From an uncultured Candidatus Binatia bacterium (GTDB taxonomy: Bacteria; Desulfobacterota; Binatia; Bin18): a DNA stretch of 64,000 nt. Under the pieces are notes generated by a model, which did not search any database, was not told the DNA's origin, and saw only the letters and a list, made by a program, of their open reading frames with translations. Numbering within the stretch: the first letter of the stretch is position 1; the number at the start of each line of letters is the position of its first letter. Below, one piece after another: positions 1,513 to 54,017 of the stretch. The stretch lies in contig OY282457.1 of assembly GCA_958296235.1 (NCBI GenBank), positions 4,273,338 through 4,337,337 on the forward strand, read 5' to 3'. Both the position numbers and the translations under genes were made by a program.

Positions 1513-2397
1513 ATGTTGCGCGGCATTTATTCGGCGCTGATTACGCCGTTTGATGAAAATGAAAACATTGATGAGCGCGGGTTAGAGGAACTTCTGGAAT
1601 GGTCAATCGGGAAGGGTCTTAACGGTGTGTTTATCGTCAGTAGCACTGGAGAATCCTGGGCGCTTAGTTTTGAGGAAAAAGTACGGCTCTTTCGACATAC
1701 GGTAGCAATCGTCAACAAGCGCATTGCCGTTATTGCTGGTGTTGGTGTTCCCTCAACGCGAGAAGCGGTGCGGCTGACAGAGGCAGCGCAAGCCGCCGGC
1801 GCGGACTCGGTCTGTGCCGTGCCACCGAGTTTTATTCGCCCAACCCAAGACGAGATGATCCAGCACTACGGCGCCATTGCTGAGGCCACGACGCTGCCCT
1901 TGCTGCTGTACAATATCCCGATGTTGGCCGGCAATGTCCTGGAACCGCCCGCAGTCCGAACATTGGCTGAACGCTACGCTCATATTCAGGGTATAAAAGA
2001 CAGCAGCGGGGATTTGACCCTGCTGAACAATCTGCTGTTGCGGCGACGGTCAGATTTCAGCGTCCTGACCGGCATCGATACCCTGCTCCTGCCCGGCCTG
2101 TTGGCCGGCAGTCAGGGCGCAATTTTAGGCAGTGCAAATGTGTGCCCTGAACTCTCGCTGGAAATCGTTCGTCTCTTTGACGCCGGTCAGCATGACCGCG
2201 CCTGGGAGGTACAGAATCGCCTGACGCGATTTTGGTTAGTCATGGGACTTGGCTCGTTTCCTGCGCCTATCAAAGCTGCCATGCAACTCCGCACTCTTCC
2301 GGCAGGCTCGACTCGGCAGCCGATTGCACCGCTGACCGCTACCGCTCGGGCTGAGCTGCAGCGAGAGTTGCAAGCTATGGGGGTATTGGACTCATAG
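1513..2397 (+). CDS. DapA/NanA-family class I aldolase (dihydrodipicolinate synthase-like)
   Basis: This is a 294-residue TIM-barrel aldolase of the DHDPS/N-acetylneuraminate lyase superfamily. The Schiff-base lysine is in GIKDSSGD (about residue 162) and the catalytic tyrosine in LLLYNIP. The carboxylate-binding loop reads SSTGES rather than the GTTGE of true DapA, and the gene is not next to lysine-biosynthesis genes. A pyruvate-type aldolase on another 2-oxo acid is therefore as likely as lysine synthesis. AAGGAG lies just before the ATG. The gene is followed closely by the XRE regulator promoter. Confidence 0.85.
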   Translation: MLRGIYSALITPFDENENIDERGLEELLEWSIGKGLNGVFIVSSTGESWALSFEEKVRLFRHTVAIVNKRIAVIAGVGVPSTREAVRLTEAAQAAGADSVCAVPPSFIRPTQDEMIQHYGAIAEATTLPLLLYNIPMLAGNVLEPPAVRTLAERYAHIQGIKDSSGDLTLLNNLLLRRRSDFSVLTGIDTLLLPGLLAGSQGAILGSANVCPELSLEIVRLFDAGQHDRAWEVQNRLTRFWLVMGLGSFPAPIKAAMQLRTLPAGSTRQPIAPLTATARAELQRELQAMGVLDS

Positions 2398-2441
2398 CGC
2401 CAACACCAGAAGAGTGGCTCAAAATATGCTGCGGGCTAAGC

Positions 2442-2473
2442 GCTTGCAAGAGTTAGCGTTTTTTGTTAGCATG
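2442..2473 (+). promoter_or_regulatory. Promoter/operator of the XRE regulator
   Basis: TTGCAA (2444-2449) and TAGCAT (2467-2472) are 17 bases apart, a good sigma-70 promoter. The spacer includes AGTTAGCG, which is repeated in the phasin promoter at 2893-2927 and is not needed for sigma-70 binding. It is probably an operator read by the adjacent XRE protein (inference). Confidence 0.6.
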
Positions 2474-2479
2474 CCGTAT

Positions 2480-2848
2480 ATGGCCCAGAAGCAACCGGAC
2501 CCATACGCCACACTTGGAGAATTTATTAAGCGCCAGCGTGAGTTATCGCAGCTTTCTCTGCGGCAGCTAGCGGACATATGCGGAATCTCCAATCCCTACC
2601 TCAGCCAGATTGAGCGCGGGCTGCGGACGCCGAGCAGCATGATCCTGCAGTCGCTGGCTAAGGGGCTGCGCATTTCAGCCGAAACCCTGTATACCCAAGC
2701 CGGCATCCTTGACCCGCAAGAAGCTGAGGAGAGCGATGTGATCAAAGCAGTTCTGCACGATCCCGACCTGTCCGCCCGCCAGCGTGAAATGATGATCGAT
2801 ATGTACCGGTCATTTCGACAGGTGAATGAAACCAGCAGCACGACTTAA
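2480..2848 (+). CDS. XRE-family transcriptional regulator
   Basis: This is a small DNA-binding protein of about 122 residues. The helix-turn-helix spans residues 10-65 of the chosen frame, with LSLRQLADICGISNPYLSQI as the core and RGLRTPSSMILQSLAKGL following. The short C-terminal tail ends in a helix (SARQREMMIDMYRSFRQ). The frame is open back to 2414, but the 5' part lies over a promoter shared with the phasin gene. The start is therefore placed at ATG 2480, exactly where transcription should begin, implying a leaderless message; ATG 2471 is an alternative. It probably regulates itself and the storage-granule genes downstream. Confidence 0.75.
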   Translation: MAQKQPDPYATLGEFIKRQRELSQLSLRQLADICGISNPYLSQIERGLRTPSSMILQSLAKGLRISAETLYTQAGILDPQEAEESDVIKAVLHDPDLSARQREMMIDMYRSFRQVNETSSTT

Positions 2849-2858
2849 AAAGAACAGG

Positions 2859-2878
2859 ATTGTCACGTAGGTGACATT
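2859..2878. promoter_or_regulatory. TGTCAC-N4-GTGACA operator upstream of the phasin
   Basis: ATTGTCACGTAGGTGACATT contains perfect 6-base arms (TGTCAC/GTGACA) around four bases. The geometry is that of a Crp/Fnr-family dimer site. It lies directly upstream of the phasin promoter, and a near-identical site precedes the Crp/Fnr gene at 4181-4200. Confidence 0.65.
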
Positions 2879-2892
2879 TTTTTACCCCAGGT

Positions 2893-2927
2893 GCTTGCAA
2901 AAGTTAGCGATTCTAGTTAGCATTAGA
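2893..2927 (+). promoter_or_regulatory. Promoter/operator of the phasin gene
   Basis: TTGCAA (2895-2900), 17 bases, then TAGCAT (2918-2923). The spacer begins AAGTTAGCG and the block closely matches the XRE promoter at 2442-2473 over about 30 bases. AGTTAGC occurs twice inside it, so a regulator site is likely superimposed on the promoter. Confidence 0.6.
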
Positions 2928-2985
2928 CCAGCTAGAAATGAGCCGACAGCGTCGGTAATCTCACAACCAAACAGGGAGGTTTCTC

Positions 2986-3324
2986 ATGACCGATAACGCA
3001 TGGAATTGCAGCGCTTTCAACAAGATGTTCGACGCCAGCGACAATCCGTTTGTCAAGATGATGAGCGGGATGAATATGCCGTTCAGCGAATCGATGAAGC
3101 AAATGGCCGCGCAGTCGCTTGAGTCCAGCGAAGAATGGGCCAGCCGAGCTTTTGAGATGAACGAAAAGGCGACGGAGTGGGCGAAGGACACGCCGTTTGC
3201 GTCAATTTTTGAAACCCAGCGATCATTCGCCCGTCAGATTTTTGACTCGTCAGCCGCACTGACCCGTCAGATCTGGCAGCTTGAGCCCAAGGCCGAAGGG
3301 GCTGCAACAGAAGCGAGCAACTAA
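2986..3324 (+). CDS. Phasin-like granule-associated protein
   Basis: This is a 112-residue protein without signal peptide or membrane segment. It is almost wholly helical and amphipathic, with the region around EEWASRAFEMNEKATEWAKD and QRSFARQIFDSS resembling phasin family repeats. Phasins coat polyhydroxyalkanoate or other lipid inclusions. GGGAGG lies 8 bases before the ATG. Two regulatory blocks lie upstream (Crp/Fnr-type palindrome and XRE-type promoter), and a hairpin follows. The family assignment rests on composition and context rather than a fixed motif. No PHA synthase is present in the window. Confidence 0.65.
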   Translation: MTDNAWNCSAFNKMFDASDNPFVKMMSGMNMPFSESMKQMAAQSLESSEEWASRAFEMNEKATEWAKDTPFASIFETQRSFARQIFDSSAALTRQIWQLEPKAEGAATEASN

Positions 3325-3342
3325 GGCGGTTCGCTCTCCTGC

Positions 3343-3377
3343 GCGGAGGATATCTCCATCTCTGTGATATCCTCTGC
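3343..3377. terminator. Bidirectional hairpin between convergent genes
   Basis: GAGGATATC (3346-3354) pairs with GATATCCTC (3366-3374), extended by GC pairs on the outside. It lies between the convergent phasin and Crp/Fnr genes. There is no clean T tract on either side. Confidence 0.5.
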
Positions 3378-3384
3378 CTTTCCT

Positions 3385-4098
3385 TCACTTTTCGTCCAAC
3401 AAGAGGCCGGCGACTTCTCGCAGACGGTCTGGCTGGACGATGAGCTTGCGCCCATCTCGGAGCAATACCTGCTGCCGTGCCAGCTCCTGCATATGCTCCG
3501 TCACTTTCTGGCGGGACGCCCCCACCAGGTCGGCGAGATCCTCATGGGTAAGCTGTAAGATCAGCATGGTCCCCCGGGCATCCTGAATCCCGAATTTTTG
3601 CGCCAATTCGAGCAGAGCCAAGGCCAGCTTTTGTCTCAGGCTGGAGCCCTGAAAATGCGTATAACGGTAGAGAAGGGCAAACCAACGGCCTACGGTTCCT
3701 TCCATCAGAGCGCTGAAATCCGTAAATGGAACGTTGAGCAGTGTCGTCACAAAAATATCTGGACGGACTGAACTGACCCAGCAGTCGCTAAACGCTTCTG
3801 AGCGAAAGGCGCGGTACATACCTGGCATCAGGGAGGTAATGCCAAATAACTCCCCAGGCGAGATGAGACTGACGAGAACGCGCTCTTCATCTGGACTGCG
3901 CAAGGAGAGTTTGACAACGCCAGAAATCAGGAAATACACCGAGTCTGAGGGCACTCCCTCGTTGAACAGGACGGTGCGTTTTTCGATGTGGTGTAGAGCC
4001 ATCTGACTCAGGAGCCGCTCCACTTGCTGATCTGAGGCCCAGGGAAATGCTTTCAGCCGCCGGATGGTTGTCACATTAAGGACCGGTATACGTGCCAT
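3385..4098 (-). CDS. Crp/Fnr-family transcriptional regulator
   Basis: This is a 237-residue protein with an N-terminal cyclic-nucleotide-binding-type beta-barrel (residues about 20-130, including FNEGVPSDSVYFLISGVVKL and SPGELFG). A long dimerisation helix and a C-terminal winged helix follow, with LTHEDLADLVGASRQKVTEHMQ split between positioning and recognition helices. No cysteine cluster for an iron-sulphur centre is seen, so it is not a classical oxygen-sensing Fnr. The start is ATG 4098; the open frame to 4251 would run over a perfect palindrome at 4181-4200 that is probably its own operator. The same core recurs four more times in this cluster. Confidence 0.85.
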   Translation of the reverse strand: MARIPVLNVTTIRRLKAFPWASDQQVERLLSQMALHHIEKRTVLFNEGVPSDSVYFLISGVVKLSLRSPDEERVLVSLISPGELFGITSLMPGMYRAFRSEAFSDCWVSSVRPDIFVTTLLNVPFTDFSALMEGTVGRWFALLYRYTHFQGSSLRQKLALALLELAQKFGIQDARGTMLILQLTHEDLADLVGASRQKVTEHMQELARQQVLLRDGRKLIVQPDRLREVAGLLLDEK

Positions 4099-48111: not shown

Positions 48112-48357
48112 ATGGCCAGCATCACGATCCGCAATCTCGAAGACGGGCTGAAACGCCAACTCAGAATCCGGGCCGCGCAGCATGGTCAATCAATGGAAGA
48201 GGAGGCGCGGCAAATTCTGCGGGTTGCGCTGAGTCCGAATTCCAGAGACCCGGTCAATCTTGCGAGGGCGATACGCGCCCGCTTTGCCCCATTGGGCGGC
48301 GTAGACCTTGATCTTCCCCCACGCGAGCCGATGCGTGAGCCGCCCCGTTTCGATTGA
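48112..48357 (+). CDS. FitA/VapB-type antitoxin
   Basis: This 81-residue protein has an N-terminal Arc-like ribbon-helix-helix (ASITIRNLEDGLKRQLRIRA then HGQSMEEEARQILRVAL). The Arg/Pro-rich C-terminal tail (LPPREPMREPPRFD) would wrap the toxin active site. It is followed 12 bases later by the PIN-domain gene. Confidence 0.93.
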   Translation: MASITIRNLEDGLKRQLRIRAAQHGQSMEEEARQILRVALSPNSRDPVNLARAIRARFAPLGGVDLDLPPREPMREPPRFD

Positions 48358-48369
48358 GTTGTTCGTCTC

Positions 48370-48792
48370 GTGATTCTTCTCGACACAAATGTCGTTTCGG
48401 AGCTGATCCGTCCCAAGCCCGATCCACGGGTTGAAACGTGGCTCTCCAGACAGGTTGCCAGCAGTATCTTTCTGTCTGTCATTAGTGAGGCCGAGCTCCG
48501 TTACGGTGTTGCGCTCCTCCCGATGGGGCGACGACGCGATAGGCTGACTGCCGAAATTGAAAATATGCTTCGGGAAGACTTCGCGGGACGCCTACTGCTG
48601 TTCGACCGGGAAGCTGCCCGCGCCTATGCCGAAATTGGAGCCGCCCGGCGTGCCGCCGGCTTGCCGATCCACCATGCGGACTGCCAGATAGCTGCCATTG
48701 CCCGCTCGCGAAATGCCGATATTGCGACCAGGAATGTGAAAGATTTCGAAGGGTGTGGGATTGACGTGATCAACCCATGGCGAACGAGTTGA
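48370..48792 (+). CDS. FitB/VapC-type PIN-domain toxin
   Basis: This 140-residue PIN nuclease has the acidic residues in MILLDTNVVSELIRP, SVISEAELRYGV, HHADCQIAAIA and IATRNVKDFEGCG, so the metal site is complete. The start is GTG 48370. It forms a type II toxin-antitoxin operon with the gene before it and marks the left edge of accessory island 2. Confidence 0.93.
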   Translation: MILLDTNVVSELIRPKPDPRVETWLSRQVASSIFLSVISEAELRYGVALLPMGRRRDRLTAEIENMLREDFAGRLLLFDREAARAYAEIGAARRAAGLPIHHADCQIAAIARSRNADIATRNVKDFEGCGIDVINPWRTS

Positions 48793-48802
48793 AGGGGTCG
48801 CC

Positions 48803-48868
48803 ATGGCCAAGCGACGATTGTCCAGCGGCATTCATATCTTCTGCGCGATTCGGGAGCAGGACCGTTAA
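48803..48868 (+). pseudogene. N-terminal remnant of an AAA-ATPase-like/PD-(D/E)xK family gene
   Basis: ATG 48803, with AAGGGG six bases before it, opens a 21-codon frame (AKRRLSSGIHIFCAIREQDR) that stops at 48866. The pattern S-G-I-x-x-F-x-x-I-R-E is the conserved start of the AAA-ATPase-like (DUF1703-associated) family, where YxxDKT normally follows. The rest is absent and the SLOG gene's 3' end occupies the place. It may mark an insertion boundary. Confidence 0.4.
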
Positions 48869-49737
48869 TGCGCTGCCTGAGCCGCTCCGAATTTTCGACC
48901 TAAGCCAAGGCTGATTAAGGCAGCAATTTCGCTTGGGCGGTGTGAAGCCGCCAGCCTCCGATTTTCCTCGTCGTTCAACCCATTATCCAGACCCGTCCAA
49001 TCTTTACGCTTAGGGAAATCGGTAAGCATATTCAGGCCCTTGAGCGTCCTCTCGTCCTGTGGGTCTCCATCGGACATTTCGGGCAGCCATGAACCATCAT
49101 CCACGTCAAGGGCCTGAATGATTCCCGTCGTAACTCCGCCAAATCCTCCAGCCAAATAGATGGGCTGCTTGTATTTCAACGTGATCAATGCCTCTTCCAC
49201 AACGCCAGGCAAATCGCCCTGGAATCCTTGACGCTTCCCCCCAATGAAAACCCGCGCGTCCGTATTGTCCGCCATGTAAAATCGCATCGCAGTCAGACTT
49301 GCCTTGCACGCTTGCTCATTGGTTTCCGGAGTGGACTCTTCCGCCCTGTTTTCATACGGATCAATCACCTGTCCAGTTTGGTCAAGAAAATCAAATTTCC
49401 CGTATAGGCCCAAAGCCTTTTGCTGCTCTTTTATAGCGCTCACGGAAAGTTTGCGGTGCTCCGGCCACGCCAGACATATCCGTAACGGGCGATCTCTGCG
49501 GCTGTATCTATACAACTCGTGGATCAGAAAGACTGTATAACCGTCGGGCTGCAAGTGTCCGCCATAGGTCAGGTGTCCCCCAGACACCAAGACGCAGCGT
49601 GCGATCTCGCCCAGAGCTAAACAAAAATGTGTCTCCAGAAGGCCTAGACGAGCCAAATCGGGGCTGTCCGAAACGGATATGCCCAACCGAATTCCCGTCA
49701 GGGCGTTTGGTGGAAGAATCTCTGTTGTTTGTTGCAT
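48865..49737 (-). CDS. SLOG-domain protein
   Basis: This 290-residue protein is of the SLOG (SMF/DprA-LOG-like Rossmann) superfamily, which binds nucleotide-derived ligands. RLGISVSDSPDLARLGL and CVLVSGGHLTYGGHLQPDGY form the N-terminal half. RVFIGGKRQGFQGDLPGVVE, IYLAGGFGGVTTGI and the helix after it form the second half. SLOG domains sense cyclic ADP-ribose species in Thoeris ThsA. AGGGGGA is nine bases before the ATG. It is 12 bases downstream of a TIR gene, so the two form an operon. Confidence 0.75.
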   Translation of the reverse strand: MQQTTEILPPNALTGIRLGISVSDSPDLARLGLLETHFCLALGEIARCVLVSGGHLTYGGHLQPDGYTVFLIHELYRYSRRDRPLRICLAWPEHRKLSVSAIKEQQKALGLYGKFDFLDQTGQVIDPYENRAEESTPETNEQACKASLTAMRFYMADNTDARVFIGGKRQGFQGDLPGVVEEALITLKYKQPIYLAGGFGGVTTGIIQALDVDDGSWLPEMSDGDPQDERTLKGLNMLTDFPKRKDWTGLDNGLNDEENRRLAASHRPSEIAALISLGLGRKFGAAQAAH

Positions 49738-49749
49738 CCGATTTTCCCC

Positions 49750-50997
49750 CTATCCACCCCGAGCTGCGAGGAGCCGCGGAGTCATGAGATCCAACGCTCC
49801 TTTTCGCCGACATAGGGACAATAGTTGTTGCAGCACAAGTTTTTCATCTGGACCAAGCGGCGGAGCAGGATGAAGAATACGAATATTAGTATCCTCTTCA
49901 GGAAGAATTCCAGCCTTCTCAGCCTCTTCTAGCCAGTGCACCAGTGTCAGCGGTTCTGGGGCATGCGGGGCCCACCATGCGATATCCAGCCCAGGAGTGT
50001 TGCGCGGGAATGCTTCCTGGTGAATCCATAGCACCCGTTTAAGACATTCATCAACAAGACGATTGAGTGCCTGATAGATGTGCTGTTTGCTCCACCCGTC
50101 TTGCGTCGTACGGACTGGGATGCGGGGAACGTGATCCATTAAAAATGACCCTCTTTCTTCTCCGATCTGAAGGGCATCCATAGTAACGATGGGCATTCCT
50201 GCATTCTTAGCAAGTAGAACCTCTCGCTGGCACCATTCGCGGCTGGAATATAGGTCAGTCCTGATTGCGAGTAGCGCACTGGTCGCTGCTTTGGACTGCA
50301 ATTCGGTCTCCCAGTCACAACCCGGTTGGAAATCGCTTGCATCGAAGAACTCCCGGAGATGAGTATTTGCAATAACTTGCCGTACTAGCGTTATCAATTC
50401 AGCCGTTTCTTCTGTAGGGGCCGGAAGGTCGCGCTTTGTGTGGCTAATGAAAACCGTGAGCCGACCTTCCTCCTTAGAGAGTAGCTGCACAACACCCTGT
50501 GCAAGATCCCGACAGCGTAGAGTTTTCTCTGATTCTCCATCCGGGTCTGGCCGGGAGGTAGCAATTCGCTGGTAGGGATTCAGCAGAGACCCAAGGACTG
50601 TACCGTCGACTGCTCTAGGATTGAGCAAATATGGAAAGAGACCGACACGCTCGGGCATCTCTCCAGCCGACTGGACCATTTTCTCAATATAGCCGTGCCA
50701 GGGCCCCGCGCTGCTTTCGACCCCTGCCGCCATCCCCGTTCCCATCAATGGCACGATTGCTACGAACTGGGCAGGCTCAACTCCATTCGGAAGAGGGTCT
50801 TGTTCAGACGGAATGGGCCTTGGGGCATCGTCATTCGAGCGCCAGCCTTGGCTACGAACAAAAACCTCAACGGCCTCTCCGATGAGACCGGTAAACGCGG
50901 AACCGTGAAAGTGTTCAAAGAATTCCTTAGCGATTTCAGCTCCTTTGCTATCGCTGGGGTGCCACACGACATAGAGTTCTAAGACTGGTGGTAACAT
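49750..50997 (-). CDS. TIR-domain protein
   Basis: This 415-residue protein has an N-terminal TIR-like or Rossmann segment (LELYVVWHPSDSKGAEIAKE, residues 6-110). A full TIR domain follows at about 178-330: RLTVFISHTKRD, the BB-loop-like FFDASDFQPGCDWETEL and SSREWCQREVLLA with the candidate catalytic Glu at 259 in the WCxxE motif. The C-terminal 90 residues (PHAPEPLTLVHWLEEAEKAG) resemble an effector-linked domain without a clear family. It probably degrades NAD or makes a signal from it. It leads the TIR-SLOG operon. Confidence 0.8.
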   Translation of the reverse strand: MLPPVLELYVVWHPSDSKGAEIAKEFFEHFHGSAFTGLIGEAVEVFVRSQGWRSNDDAPRPIPSEQDPLPNGVEPAQFVAIVPLMGTGMAAGVESSAGPWHGYIEKMVQSAGEMPERVGLFPYLLNPRAVDGTVLGSLLNPYQRIATSRPDPDGESEKTLRCRDLAQGVVQLLSKEEGRLTVFISHTKRDLPAPTEETAELITLVRQVIANTHLREFFDASDFQPGCDWETELQSKAATSALLAIRTDLYSSREWCQREVLLAKNAGMPIVTMDALQIGEERGSFLMDHVPRIPVRTTQDGWSKQHIYQALNRLVDECLKRVLWIHQEAFPRNTPGLDIAWWAPHAPEPLTLVHWLEEAEKAGILPEEDTNIRILHPAPPLGPDEKLVLQQLLSLCRRKGALDLMTPRLLAARGG

Positions 50998-51111
50998 TCG
51001 GTTTTCCTGACTTACGGTTACTCAACCTTTACTTTGTAGCATATCGGACCCATAACTATGTTTACTGAAACGGTCCAGATTCATTCTTTGCACAGGAAGG
51101 AGCTGCGGTTC

Positions 51112-51585
51112 ATGGCTGAGGAAACAAAGAACGTGTTCATAAGTCACATTCATGAAGATGACGAGGGTCTGGGCAAACTCAAGGGTTTGCTGAAAGACAA
51201 TGGGATGACGGTCAGGGACTATTCAATCACTGCGGATAATCCCAACAACGCGCATTCAGAAGACTACATTAAATCTGAAATTCTCGCTCCTCGCATTCAA
51301 CAATCGAGCACATTGGTTGTTTATATCTCACCCGAAACCAGAGAGAGCGAGTGGGTCAACTGGGAAATTGAGTACGCGCAGAAGCGGGACAAGCGGATTG
51401 TAGGGGTTTGGGAGTATGGGAAAAAGGATTGTGAGGTTCCCGATGCCTTGGATAAGTACGCCGACACCATAGTTGGCTGGACCGGTAACAGCATCATCGA
51501 CGCTATAAACGGAAAGATCAACGGCTGGGAAGGATCAGACGGTACACCGGGCGCTCCACGTAATATCGACCGGCATGGGTGCTAG
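51112..51585 (+). CDS. ThsB-like TIR protein (MTH538/DUF1863 type)
   Basis: This 157-residue protein is entirely a TIR-like domain: NVFISHIHEDDEGLGKLKGL, VRDYSI, SEDYIKSEILAPRI and LVVYISPETRESEWVNWEIE with the candidate catalytic Glu near residues 85-87. The group includes ThsB of Thoeris, which makes a cyclic ADP-ribose signal on infection. The start is ATG 51112 with AAGGAG nine bases before it. It is divergent from the TIR-SLOG operon across about 115 bases and is followed at once by the Nmad2 gene. Confidence 0.82.
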   Translation: MAEETKNVFISHIHEDDEGLGKLKGLLKDNGMTVRDYSITADNPNNAHSEDYIKSEILAPRIQQSSTLVVYISPETRESEWVNWEIEYAQKRDKRIVGVWEYGKKDCEVPDALDKYADTIVGWTGNSIIDAINGKINGWEGSDGTPGAPRNIDRHGC

Positions 51586-51595
51586 GAGAGGTACG

Positions 51596-52207
51596 TTGAG
51601 ATTATTCTCTTATGTTGTTGCCCGCGACTATGGTTTTGCCCCTAATCCTTTTTTCGGAGTCTGCACCTTAGCTACTTGTAAGCCGAAAATTCGGAGTGCT
51701 GCCTCTATCGGTGACTGGATTGTCGGCACTGGTAGTGCCTCACAACAGAGACAAGGATACCTCGTTTACGTAATGCAGGTAACTGAGGTCATGTCATTCG
51801 ATGAATACTGGAACGATGAGCGATTTCGCCAGAAAAGACCGAACTTGCGAGGGAGTAAGAAGCAAGCCTTTGGTGATAACATCTATTGCAGGGACGATGT
51901 CGGGAGGTGGAATCAGCAGGATTCCCATCACAGCCTTAAGGACGGTAGTCCTAACGAGGAAAATATCAAGCATGATACAAAGACGAACAGAATTCTGCTC
52001 AGTATGGACTACGCTTATTGGGGCAGTTCGGGACCGGAAATTTCCTTAAAATTTAGGAGTGACTACGGAATTGATATTTGCTGCGCACGATTAGGGCATA
52101 AGAGTCGTTTTCCAGAAGACATGGTTAATGATTTTGTTGGCTGGTTCCGTTCTCTGGGCATAAACGGTTATCGGGGCGAGCCGCTGGACTGGTCGAAAAC
52201 TCCATGA
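51596..52207 (+). CDS. Nmad2-family nucleotide-modification-associated protein
   Basis: This 203-residue protein has the family pattern RLFSYVVARDYGFAPNPFFG, CTLATCKPKIR, GDWIVGTGS, FDEYWNDERFRQKRP, AFGDNIYCRDD and WNQQDSHHS. Nmad proteins were defined by association with modified DNA bases and their enzymes. TTG 51596, with AGGAGAGG before it, gives the usual N-terminus; ATG 51575 would overlap the TIR gene. The stop overlaps the next start as ATGA. Confidence 0.75.
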   Translation: MRLFSYVVARDYGFAPNPFFGVCTLATCKPKIRSAASIGDWIVGTGSASQQRQGYLVYVMQVTEVMSFDEYWNDERFRQKRPNLRGSKKQAFGDNIYCRDDVGRWNQQDSHHSLKDGSPNEENIKHDTKTNRILLSMDYAYWGSSGPEISLKFRSDYGIDICCARLGHKSRFPEDMVNDFVGWFRSLGINGYRGEPLDWSKTP

Positions 52208-53370
52208 CCAATGAGCTATCTTCCGTAGGCCAGCAAGAGAAAAAGACTTTGATGAGCTCAATTTCCCTGCGTGACTATATGCGGGAAATTGAGCTCACAG
52301 ATAAGCTACCTAAAGACGATGTGCGTCCAGTCCTTTTAGGGCTATTTGGTGAGGTCGGCGGTATTCTAGCAGCAGCAAAGAAACACCACCGGGAAAAAGA
52401 AGCATATGTTGGATATCAACAAGCATTAGAGGAAGAATTTGGCGATGTCCTGTGGTATTTCGCCACGTTGTGTCGGCGTTTGGGCGTTAACATTGAGACC
52501 ATCTTTTCCGATGTCGTACGGCAGGATGGATATAATCAAATCACCGCCGCAGGTGACATTCCAGAGGGTACAGTTTCTCATATCTCGTCCTTCGATAAAT
52601 TGTCTAACCATTCTGAAACACTTCTGAATCTCGGAGAGGCTACGGCGGCATTGCTGAGGGTCGAGGAGCTAAGCGAACAGACGCAGAAAAGGCTACTGAG
52701 CTTCTCAGATAATTACTTGCAGGCGCTTCAGGCGGCCAAGGTGAACTTTGCAAAAATTGTTCGCATGAATATCAGAAAGGCGCGAGGGCGGTTCCTTGAT
52801 CCGGTAAGGTCACGCCTGCCAACATTCGACAGCGCCTTCCCGGATGAAGAAAGACTGCCCCAGCATTTCGAGATTCGATTTAGACAGCGAAAAAGCGGAC
52901 AAAGTTATCTACAATGGAAGGGCGTATTTATTGGTGAACCGCTCACCGACAACATTCTTGCTCCCGACGGCTACCGATTCCACGACGTTTTCCATTTTGC
53001 GTACGCTGCCATACTCCATTGGTCACCTGTCTTTCGGGCATTGATAAAGCAGAAGCGTAAAAGTGATCCAAAAATTGATGAAGCACAGGACGGTGGCAGG
53101 GCGATTGCCATTGAGGAAGGACTGACAGCCTGGATATTTTCCTGCGCTAAGCATCTTAATTTTTTTGATGGGCCGAACCTAATCTCTTTTGATATGCTGA
53201 AGACAGTGCAGCAATTCGTTCAAGGCTACGAGGTGGAAGCCTGCCCTCTTAACCTGTGGGAGCGTGCTATCCTGGACGGATACAAGGTTTTTAGACAGGT
53301 TCGGGGAAATAACGGTGGGATCGTGGTCGGAAATCGCGCGGCTCGTACCATTGAATACAAGCTCATGTGA
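52204..53370 (+). CDS. MazG-like nucleotide pyrophosphohydrolase-domain protein
   Basis: This 388-residue protein has an N-terminal MazG-like domain. LLGLFGEVGGILAAAKKHHR carries Glu50, and ALEEEFGDVLWYFATLC carries the ExxD pair (Glu78/Asp81); the second Glu of the usual ExxE is Gly53. The C-terminal half (YRFHDVFHFAYAAILHWSPV; AIAIEEGLTAWIFSCAKHLN) is also helical and may be a second divergent MazG-like unit. Such enzymes hydrolyse (modified) NTPs. It is translationally coupled to Nmad2. Confidence 0.75.
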   Translation: MTNELSSVGQQEKKTLMSSISLRDYMREIELTDKLPKDDVRPVLLGLFGEVGGILAAAKKHHREKEAYVGYQQALEEEFGDVLWYFATLCRRLGVNIETIFSDVVRQDGYNQITAAGDIPEGTVSHISSFDKLSNHSETLLNLGEATAALLRVEELSEQTQKRLLSFSDNYLQALQAAKVNFAKIVRMNIRKARGRFLDPVRSRLPTFDSAFPDEERLPQHFEIRFRQRKSGQSYLQWKGVFIGEPLTDNILAPDGYRFHDVFHFAYAAILHWSPVFRALIKQKRKSDPKIDEAQDGGRAIAIEEGLTAWIFSCAKHLNFFDGPNLISFDMLKTVQQFVQGYEVEACPLNLWERAILDGYKVFRQVRGNNGGIVVGNRAARTIEYKLM

Positions 53371-53381
53371 GGAGGTTGGGG

Positions 53382-54017
53382 GTGACGACACCGGAGTCCT
53401 TTATCGAGGCGCTGAGAAAATTAAAATTCGAAGACACATTTAATCCGTATTCAGAGCGATGCACCGTTCATGACCATGATGACGCGCCGAGTATGCGATC
53501 AAAAACACTGCTGGCTATATTGGAAGCGGCGACACAGCGAGAAATCGATTCTCTGTGGGTGGGGCAGGAGCTTGGGTATAAGGGGGGACGACGGACAGGA
53601 CTTGCCTTTACAGACGATGTGCATCTTCAGGAACATGCTGAGCGATGGAGCGTACCATTTGAGCGGCCAACAAAAGGAAAGGAGGTCAAAGAGGGGACGG
53701 CTGCCGAAGTATGGGGCGTTCTCTCGCTGATTAAAGCTCCCGTTTTTCTCTGGAACGTCTTCCCCTTACACACGTATAAGTCTGACAACCCGTCCAGCAA
53801 TAGAGAACATAATGCGCATGAGCGTAGCGCCGGGAAAAAGCTCCTCTCGCAACTGATCTCGCTCTTGGAGCCGCATCGATTGATTACGGTTGGCAGAGTT
53901 GCCGAAAAAGTGGCCCATAGTCTGCGGGATGGGCATGAAGTGATATATGTACGACATCCTGCTTATGGTGGGCAGGACAAATTTCGAGCGAAAATGCGAG
54001 CCCTCTATTCTTTGTGA
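53382..54017 (+). CDS. Uracil-DNA-glycosylase-like protein
   Basis: This 211-residue protein of the UDG superfamily has SLWVGQELGYKGGRRTGLAF as motif 1, VFLWNVFPLHTYKSDNP and RHPAYGGQDKFRAKM as motif 3 region. The usual role is excision of uracil or another damaged or modified base. GTG 53382 is chosen, with AGGAGG six bases before it; GTG 53367 is upstream. It closes the TIR-Nmad2-MazG-UDG operon. Confidence 0.75.
   Translation: MTTPESFIEALRKLKFEDTFNPYSERCTVHDHDDAPSMRSKTLLAILEAATQREIDSLWVGQELGYKGGRRTGLAFTDDVHLQEHAERWSVPFERPTKGKEVKEGTAAEVWGVLSLIKAPVFLWNVFPLHTYKSDNPSSNREHNAHERSAGKKLLSQLISLLEPHRLITVGRVAEKVAHSLRDGHEVIYVRHPAYGGQDKFRAKMRALYSL

Follow-up and report, generated by a model that had tools for sequence, protein, structure and literature searches.

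Nmad2, MazG-like and UDG-like genes behind a ThsB-type TIR gene: a widespread operon and candidate Thoeris-family defence system

Gene organisation of the locus

We analysed a 64,000-nucleotide stretch (the window) of a genome from an uncultured Candidatus Binatia bacterium, in which an Nmad2 gene, a MazG-like gene and a gene of the UDG superfamily had originally been predicted to form a cassette for surveillance of modified bases. Pfam profiles bear out all three families, the coordinates were right, and the open reading frames are intact and translationally coupled (Table 1). The trio is not supported as a stand-alone cassette; it is the downstream part of an operon led by ThsB and accompanied by SLOG effectors, a four-gene arrangement that is widespread in bacteria and opens with a Thoeris-type immune signalling enzyme. 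The end of ThsB is separated by 10 bases from the TTG start of Nmad2, which lies behind AGGAGAGG in an open reading frame spanning 51575–52207. Nmad2 and MazG overlap by ATGA, as had been described, whereas the gap between MazG and UDG, given earlier as 12 bases, is 11 bases when counted to GTG 53382, a start preceded by GGAGG; the alternative GTG 53367 creates a GTGA overlap instead. The operon contains no base-modifying enzyme, in line with the original observation.

A divergent TIR and SLOG pair (50997–48865) starts 114 bp upstream of the operon, and the whole block is flanked by hisH on one side and a luciferase-like gene on the other. Adjoining hisH is a VapBC pair (FitA-like antitoxin and PIN toxin, 48112–48792), copies or remnants of which occupy the same place in several congeners.

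Table 1. Features of the operon and its divergent neighbours, in window coordinates
Feature	Position	Strand	Remarks
SLOG (LD_cluster2) protein	48865–49737	-	PF18163 E 6.6e-58; probable nucleotide-signal receptor
Long TIR protein, divergent from operon	49750–50997	-	PF13676 E 2e-5; probable effector or second TIR
Divergent intergenic region	50998–51111		114 bp, from gene coordinates; presumably holds both promoters (predicted)
ThsB-type TIR, operon gene 1	51112–51585	+	157 aa from ATG 51112; alternative start 51058
Nmad2	51596–52207	+	203 aa, TTG start; PF18753
MazG-like NTP-PPase domain (~20–198) and MazG_C domain (~205–386)	52204–53370	+	PF18722
UDG-superfamily glycosylase-like protein	53382–54017	+	GTG 53382, alternative GTG 53367; PF03167

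Recurrence of the operon

The operon was surveyed by one species-genome scan seeded with the MazG protein, together with plasmid hits, which is not an unbiased census. The survey gave 61 loci with Nmad2 adjoining MazG, including the window itself and a few near-duplicates. The order ThsB-Nmad2-MazG_C-UDG is common to most of them and spans at least six phyla. ThsB lies directly upstream of Nmad2 in 60 of the 61 loci, the exception beginning at Nmad2 on a contig edge, and UDG follows MazG in 56. Where UDG is missing, two loci (L003 and L073) are cut by the contig end, whereas L002/L020 (apparently one contig) and L042 are genuinely without it; UDG is thus not essential to the arrangement. Complete operons number 55, of which 45 are distinct at more than 3% MazG difference. 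Record titles place hosts in, among others, the Alpha-, Beta- and Gammaproteobacteria, Binatota, Acidobacteria (Bryobacterales), Chloroflexi, Gemmatimonadetes and Omnitrophota. Finding this order in dozens of distant loci puts the association far beyond chance.

Distribution is patchy at closer range. Within the window's phylum, only 9 of 395 genomes have Nmad2 and two have the close ThsB clade, one of these being the window's own genome. Over 2,900 bp the operon is identical in Stutzerimonas, Variovorax and Achromobacter. A search of 50,697 phage records with MazG, Nmad2 and UDG returned no match, and the idea of a phage-borne modification cassette was dropped on that ground. On viral contigs the operon is rare: the MazG scan gave almost only generic MazG domains, with Nmad2-MazG-UDG on one contig and the full ThsB operon on a second. 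A protein family of 390–530 aa (c28) with no Pfam or PADLOC match occurs near the operon in L035, L036, L045, L048 and L073 (~1600–4060).

Association with Thoeris-type effectors

The first gene of the operon matches PADLOC ThsB (PDLC00418) at E 1.5e-64 and PF08937 at E 1.6e-23, and its catalytic Glu (E103 counted from 51058) is kept in 31 of 31 sequences; the window thus holds the ThsB-type TIR of Thoeris type I. A C-terminal Cys (window 51576–51585) lies within the last three residues of the operon ThsB in 60 of 60 loci, and in 44 it ends the protein, usually as ...RHPC; among other TIRs in the same loci, 4 of 43 end in Cys. Elsewhere in the window's genome there is a second ThsB-type TIR (G000:C1:3649643-3649927, 99 bits).

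The window's long TIR scores 25.4 bits with PF13676, just under the cut-off of 28, and carries the motif W255-C-Q-R-E259. Neither gene of the divergent pair reaches the ThcA or ThcB4 cut-offs (15.6 bits against 220 for the TIR with ThcB4, no match for SLOG), and no SIR2-SLOG ThsA was found in the window, where TIR plus SLOG takes its place. Among relatives, a SLOG-type effector set or its TIR lies within ~6 kb in 48 of the 61 loci, and nine of the 13 loci lacking a SLOG-type effector are short contigs. A TIR (c4) paired with SLOG cluster 3 (c5), of the ThcB4-ThcA type, is present in 24 loci; the pair tested, from L014, scored 417 bits for ThcB4 (cut-off 220) and 225 bits for ThcA (cut-off 110), above both type III thresholds. 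The window-type TIR-SLOG2 pair occurs in 14 related loci, SIR2-STALD in six of the 61 (the one tested, L043, is PADLOC ThsA at 5e-155) and patatin-SLOG in five. With these effector sets beside it, the operon is the ThsB side of several Thoeris-like systems. It shares with Thoeris types I and III a ThsB-type TIR and a SLOG receptor with a TIR or SIR2 effector, and relatives' neighbours score as ThcA, ThcB4 and ThsA. It differs in the three extra genes fixed behind ThsB and, in the window, by a TIR and SLOG below the type III cut-offs and the lack of SIR2-ThsA.

Domain analysis of Nmad2, MazG and UDG

Nmad2 belongs to PF18753 (E 4.6e-70, 235.7 bits against a gathering cut-off of 26.1) and gave a confident AF2 model (pLDDT 93.6); the alignments behind the structure models were built without plasmid rows. 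Foldseek matches to this model are individually weak (best E 0.02), and most belong to the PUA superfamily, among them EVE, YTH, ASCH, the McrB N-domain bound to m5C DNA and VcaM4I. With VIA-align, all 50 among the matches listed were YTH or EVE, at Z 6.6–7.6, below Z 8, and with rmsd 3.2–4.0 over 116–136 residues. The models are thus suggestive of a resemblance to the modified-base readers YTH and EVE. Similarity of the predicted fold to such readers (VcaM4I, McrB N-domain) is moderate, and unlike them the operon has no nuclease and is coupled to a TIR gene instead.

The MazG-like protein matches PF18722 (MazG_C) at E 2.2e-79 and 265.9 bits, whereas the MazG domain is weak on its own (PF03819, E 0.0012, 19.5 bits against a cut-off of 22). 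A fold search with the N-half found 2cic at Z 12.3 over 187 residues and 5myf at Z 11.8 over 146, with MazG entries filling the list, and the A3 profile matched MazG structures at E 1e-7. The N-half has the all-alpha NTP-PPase superfamily fold and, from the model comparison, falls with the dimeric dUTPases; this comparison rests on the N-half, the MazG_C domain being barely covered. MazG_C carries an invariant RFHDxFH...E set, and the phage family phrog_229 matches the protein by profile. The loss of the second Glu of ExxE, noted earlier for the window protein, proved to be family-wide: Gly or Ser takes its place in 36 of 36 operon MazGs and none has Glu, while E50, E78 and D81 are kept in all 36. 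The full ExxE...ExxD metal site of catalytic MazG is therefore incomplete, one Glu being replaced and the other acids present. With one metal-site Glu lost across the family, impaired hydrolysis and a binding role for this protein are plausible from its sequence.

The UDG-like protein falls in the UDG superfamily by PF03167 (28.4 bits against a cut-off of 24.3). The family motifs G-[R/Q]-[D/E]-L-G and RHP[S/A]YGG are kept, relatives having G-R-D-L-G-Y and RHPSYGG, and motifs I and III are conserved. We take these motifs to resemble those of family 5. The window protein (53565–53966) departs from its relatives at Q67, E68, K72, T136 and A199. It is the one exception among 42 aligned sequences, the other 41 having R, D, R, P and S at these sites, and the deviations may reflect altered specificity or decay. 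A single-sequence search of the PDB gave no match, and the UDG profile gave only chance-level PDB matches, type 4 UDGs among them at E 0.14–0.22; assignment to a particular UDG family was withheld for this reason.

Exchange of the Nmad2-MazG half between congeners

Comparison with congeners shows both an empty and an occupied site. In G003 and G006 hisH directly adjoins the luciferase-like gene, and G004 carries the same insertion as the window. Nucleotide identity between G004 and the window is 89% for SLOG, 95% for TIR and 94% for ThsB, similar to the flanking hisH (89%), and falls to 74% for Nmad2 and 80% at the start of MazG. Correspondingly, dS is 0.40, 0.11 and 0.17 for SLOG, TIR and ThsB, and 1.23 and 0.56 for Nmad2 and MazG. 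Because dS jumps to 1.23 and 0.56 while the other three genes stay at 0.11–0.40, the input half (Nmad2-MazG) has probably been exchanged against a constant signalling half, a reading of the sequences that rests on one genome pair and on NG86 estimates that are rough above 1. We rejected positive selection as the cause of the Nmad2 divergence: dS (1.23) rises together with dN, dN/dS is 0.15, and replacement by recombination fits better.

Outer relatives and base-modifying enzymes

A hydroxymethylase or thymidylate-synthase-like gene beside the operon would mark a base-modification cassette. Within ~6 kb, ThyA-like, HMUDK and dCTP deaminase genes are absent from all 61 Nmad2+MazG loci, and modifying enzymes of this kind appear only in outer relatives. 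There, ThsB-Nmad2 is the closest pair and the genes behind it vary: HMUDK and radical SAM in Parabacteroides; HMUDK-MazG_C with patatin in Gloeothece; thymidylate synthase-methyltransferase-HMUDK in Sinorhizobium; and MazG and HMUDK, with no UDG, in Rhodococcus. MazG-UDG pairs with no TIR also exist, partnered by a ThyA-like protein, a papain-type protease, an ImmA protease and an HTH protein, plasmid loci included. As the thymidylate-synthase homologue is confined to outer relatives, the surveillance idea is weakened and not removed.

Several further arrangements were seen. In L076, L077, L078, L099 and L101 (MazG at ~6000), often plasmids, MazG_C-UDG is convergent with ThyA-like, papain-type peptidase, ImmA/IrrE and HTH genes. 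L079–L098 hold a recurrent HTH-ImmA-ThyA-like-HMUDK-MazG_C operon (short MazG_C) with neither TIR nor UDG, whose ThyA-like protein has a conserved PCL motif resembling a catalytic Cys. A two-gene Nmad2 and Nmad3 unit with no TIR (L103, L104, L110, L245) suggests a second Nmad2 context. The HMUDK profile gave only chance matches in the PDB.

Discussion

Gene content, gene order, conservation, the association with effectors and a probable cassette exchange between congeners, as shown above, lead us to favour, at a rough probability of 0.55, a Thoeris-family anti-phage system in which a swappable module that senses modified bases or nucleotides would control the TIR signal. ThsB, a TIR enzyme, would make a nucleotide signal from NAD+, with Nmad2-MazG_C-UDG as its input module. 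Nmad2, with its YTH/EVE-like model, and UDG would detect base modifications in the DNA of an incoming phage, and the MazG-like protein might bind or trim the matching modified nucleotides, acting mainly as a sensor since its metal site lacks one ligand. Recognition would turn ThsB on; SLOG would receive the signal, the TIR partner would deplete NAD+ and infection would stop. The ligand, how ThsB is activated, the nature of the signal and the resulting phenotype are inferred. Because the module belongs to a TIR operon with SLOG effectors, its likely output is an alarm rather than base removal. The proposed surveillance against modified bases survives in part: it agrees with the lack of modifying enzymes in the 61 loci, with the YTH/EVE-like models of Nmad2 and with the existence of glycosylase defence against modified-base phages (Brig1, PMC11078745; Brig3, PMC13160076), but it missed the TIR output, and modifying enzymes do occur in outer relatives. 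Against our preferred reading stand fold matches below Z 8, the absence of UDG from L002/L020 and L042 and the occurrence of Nmad2 apart from ThsB, for example with Nmad3; the ThyA and HMUDK enzymes found in outer relatives would fit base modification or nucleotide synthesis as well.

A direct base-excision defence, close to the original proposal, in which UDG removes modified phage bases, MazG destroys modified dNTPs, Nmad2 guides and the TIRs merely share the island or act as backup, seems unlikely. Brig glycosylases act on their own or together with a helper (PMC11078745, PMC13160076), MazG-UDG pairs exist with no TIR, and the catalytic motifs of UDG are kept, yet ThsB almost invariably sits directly before Nmad2, UDG is missing in L020/L002 and L042, and none of the 36 operon MazGs compared retains all its metal ligands. 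The resemblance to Brig1 and Brig3 lies in a UDG-superfamily protein in a defence setting, which makes a modified-base target plausible; unlike them, the window UDG sits in an operon with TIR signalling, and its single sequence matches no PDB chain. All the partners act on nucleotides, the genes swapped in (HMUDK, radical SAM, ThyA and methyltransferase) look like a set for making nucleotides, and TIRs can make conjugates such as His-ADPR (PMC12948488), so that MazG and UDG might supply or process a modified base or nucleotide for the ThsB signal, or remove that signal, with no sensing of phage DNA modification. We consider this improbable: the exchange of Nmad2-MazG against constant ThsB, TIR and SLOG is easier to understand as a changed input, and the receptor must still read the signal. 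In a further reading, to which we give a slim chance, ThsB would join a modified phage base or nucleotide, excised by the glycosylase or released by MazG, to ADP-ribose, and the alarm molecule that SLOG reads would thereby contain part of the DNA chemistry of the phage. Modified phage DNA would then directly trigger TIR immunity, and Nmad2-MazG-UDG would be exchanged to track new modifications.

A self-modification cassette, producing a hypermodified base for the DNA of the host or a plasmid, could draw on the ThyA-like protein with its PCL motif and on HMUDK, but these belong to the outer relatives and not to the neighbourhoods of the 61 loci, and the TIR and SLOG effectors would be left unexplained; we hold it to be very improbable. 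Repair and clean-up enzymes of the MazG and UDG families are common, which would suit housekeeping nucleotide clean-up beside chance neighbours. This we find scarcely credible, given the scarcity of Nmad2 in the phylum, the empty site in congeners, the plasmid loci, the recent transfer and the fixed order with immune TIRs.

Among known systems, Kongming (KomABC) likewise places a nucleotide-binding protein beside an NAD+-consuming effector; its KomB, which is HAM1-like, binds dITP. The present operon differs in the all-alpha MazG fold, in that no KomA-type deaminase was seen and in the addition of Nmad2 and UDG. DefensePredictor (PMC13092281, 2026), in the part around its Fig. 6F, places MazG, MazG-C, NMAD and UDG among predicted, unvalidated defence domains and cites Burroughs 2015; that part of its text gives no gene order, TIR coupling, effectors or mechanism. 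To the extent of our checks, four points are new: the link of the trio to a TIR gene and to several kinds of Thoeris effector, the fold predicted for Nmad2, the family-wide loss of the MazG Glu, and the probable exchange of the cassette. An earlier mention of the exact operon is possible.

What triggers most TIR immune systems is little understood, and base modification lets many phages hide their DNA. A TIR protein, a putative modified-base reader, a MazG relative and a glycosylase-like protein in one operon suggest that the trigger may be the phage disguise itself, and exchange of the input half alone against constant signalling and effector genes is how a specificity cassette would be expected to look. 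Should this reading hold, Thoeris signalling, glycosylase defence and the sensing of unusual nucleotides would be connected.
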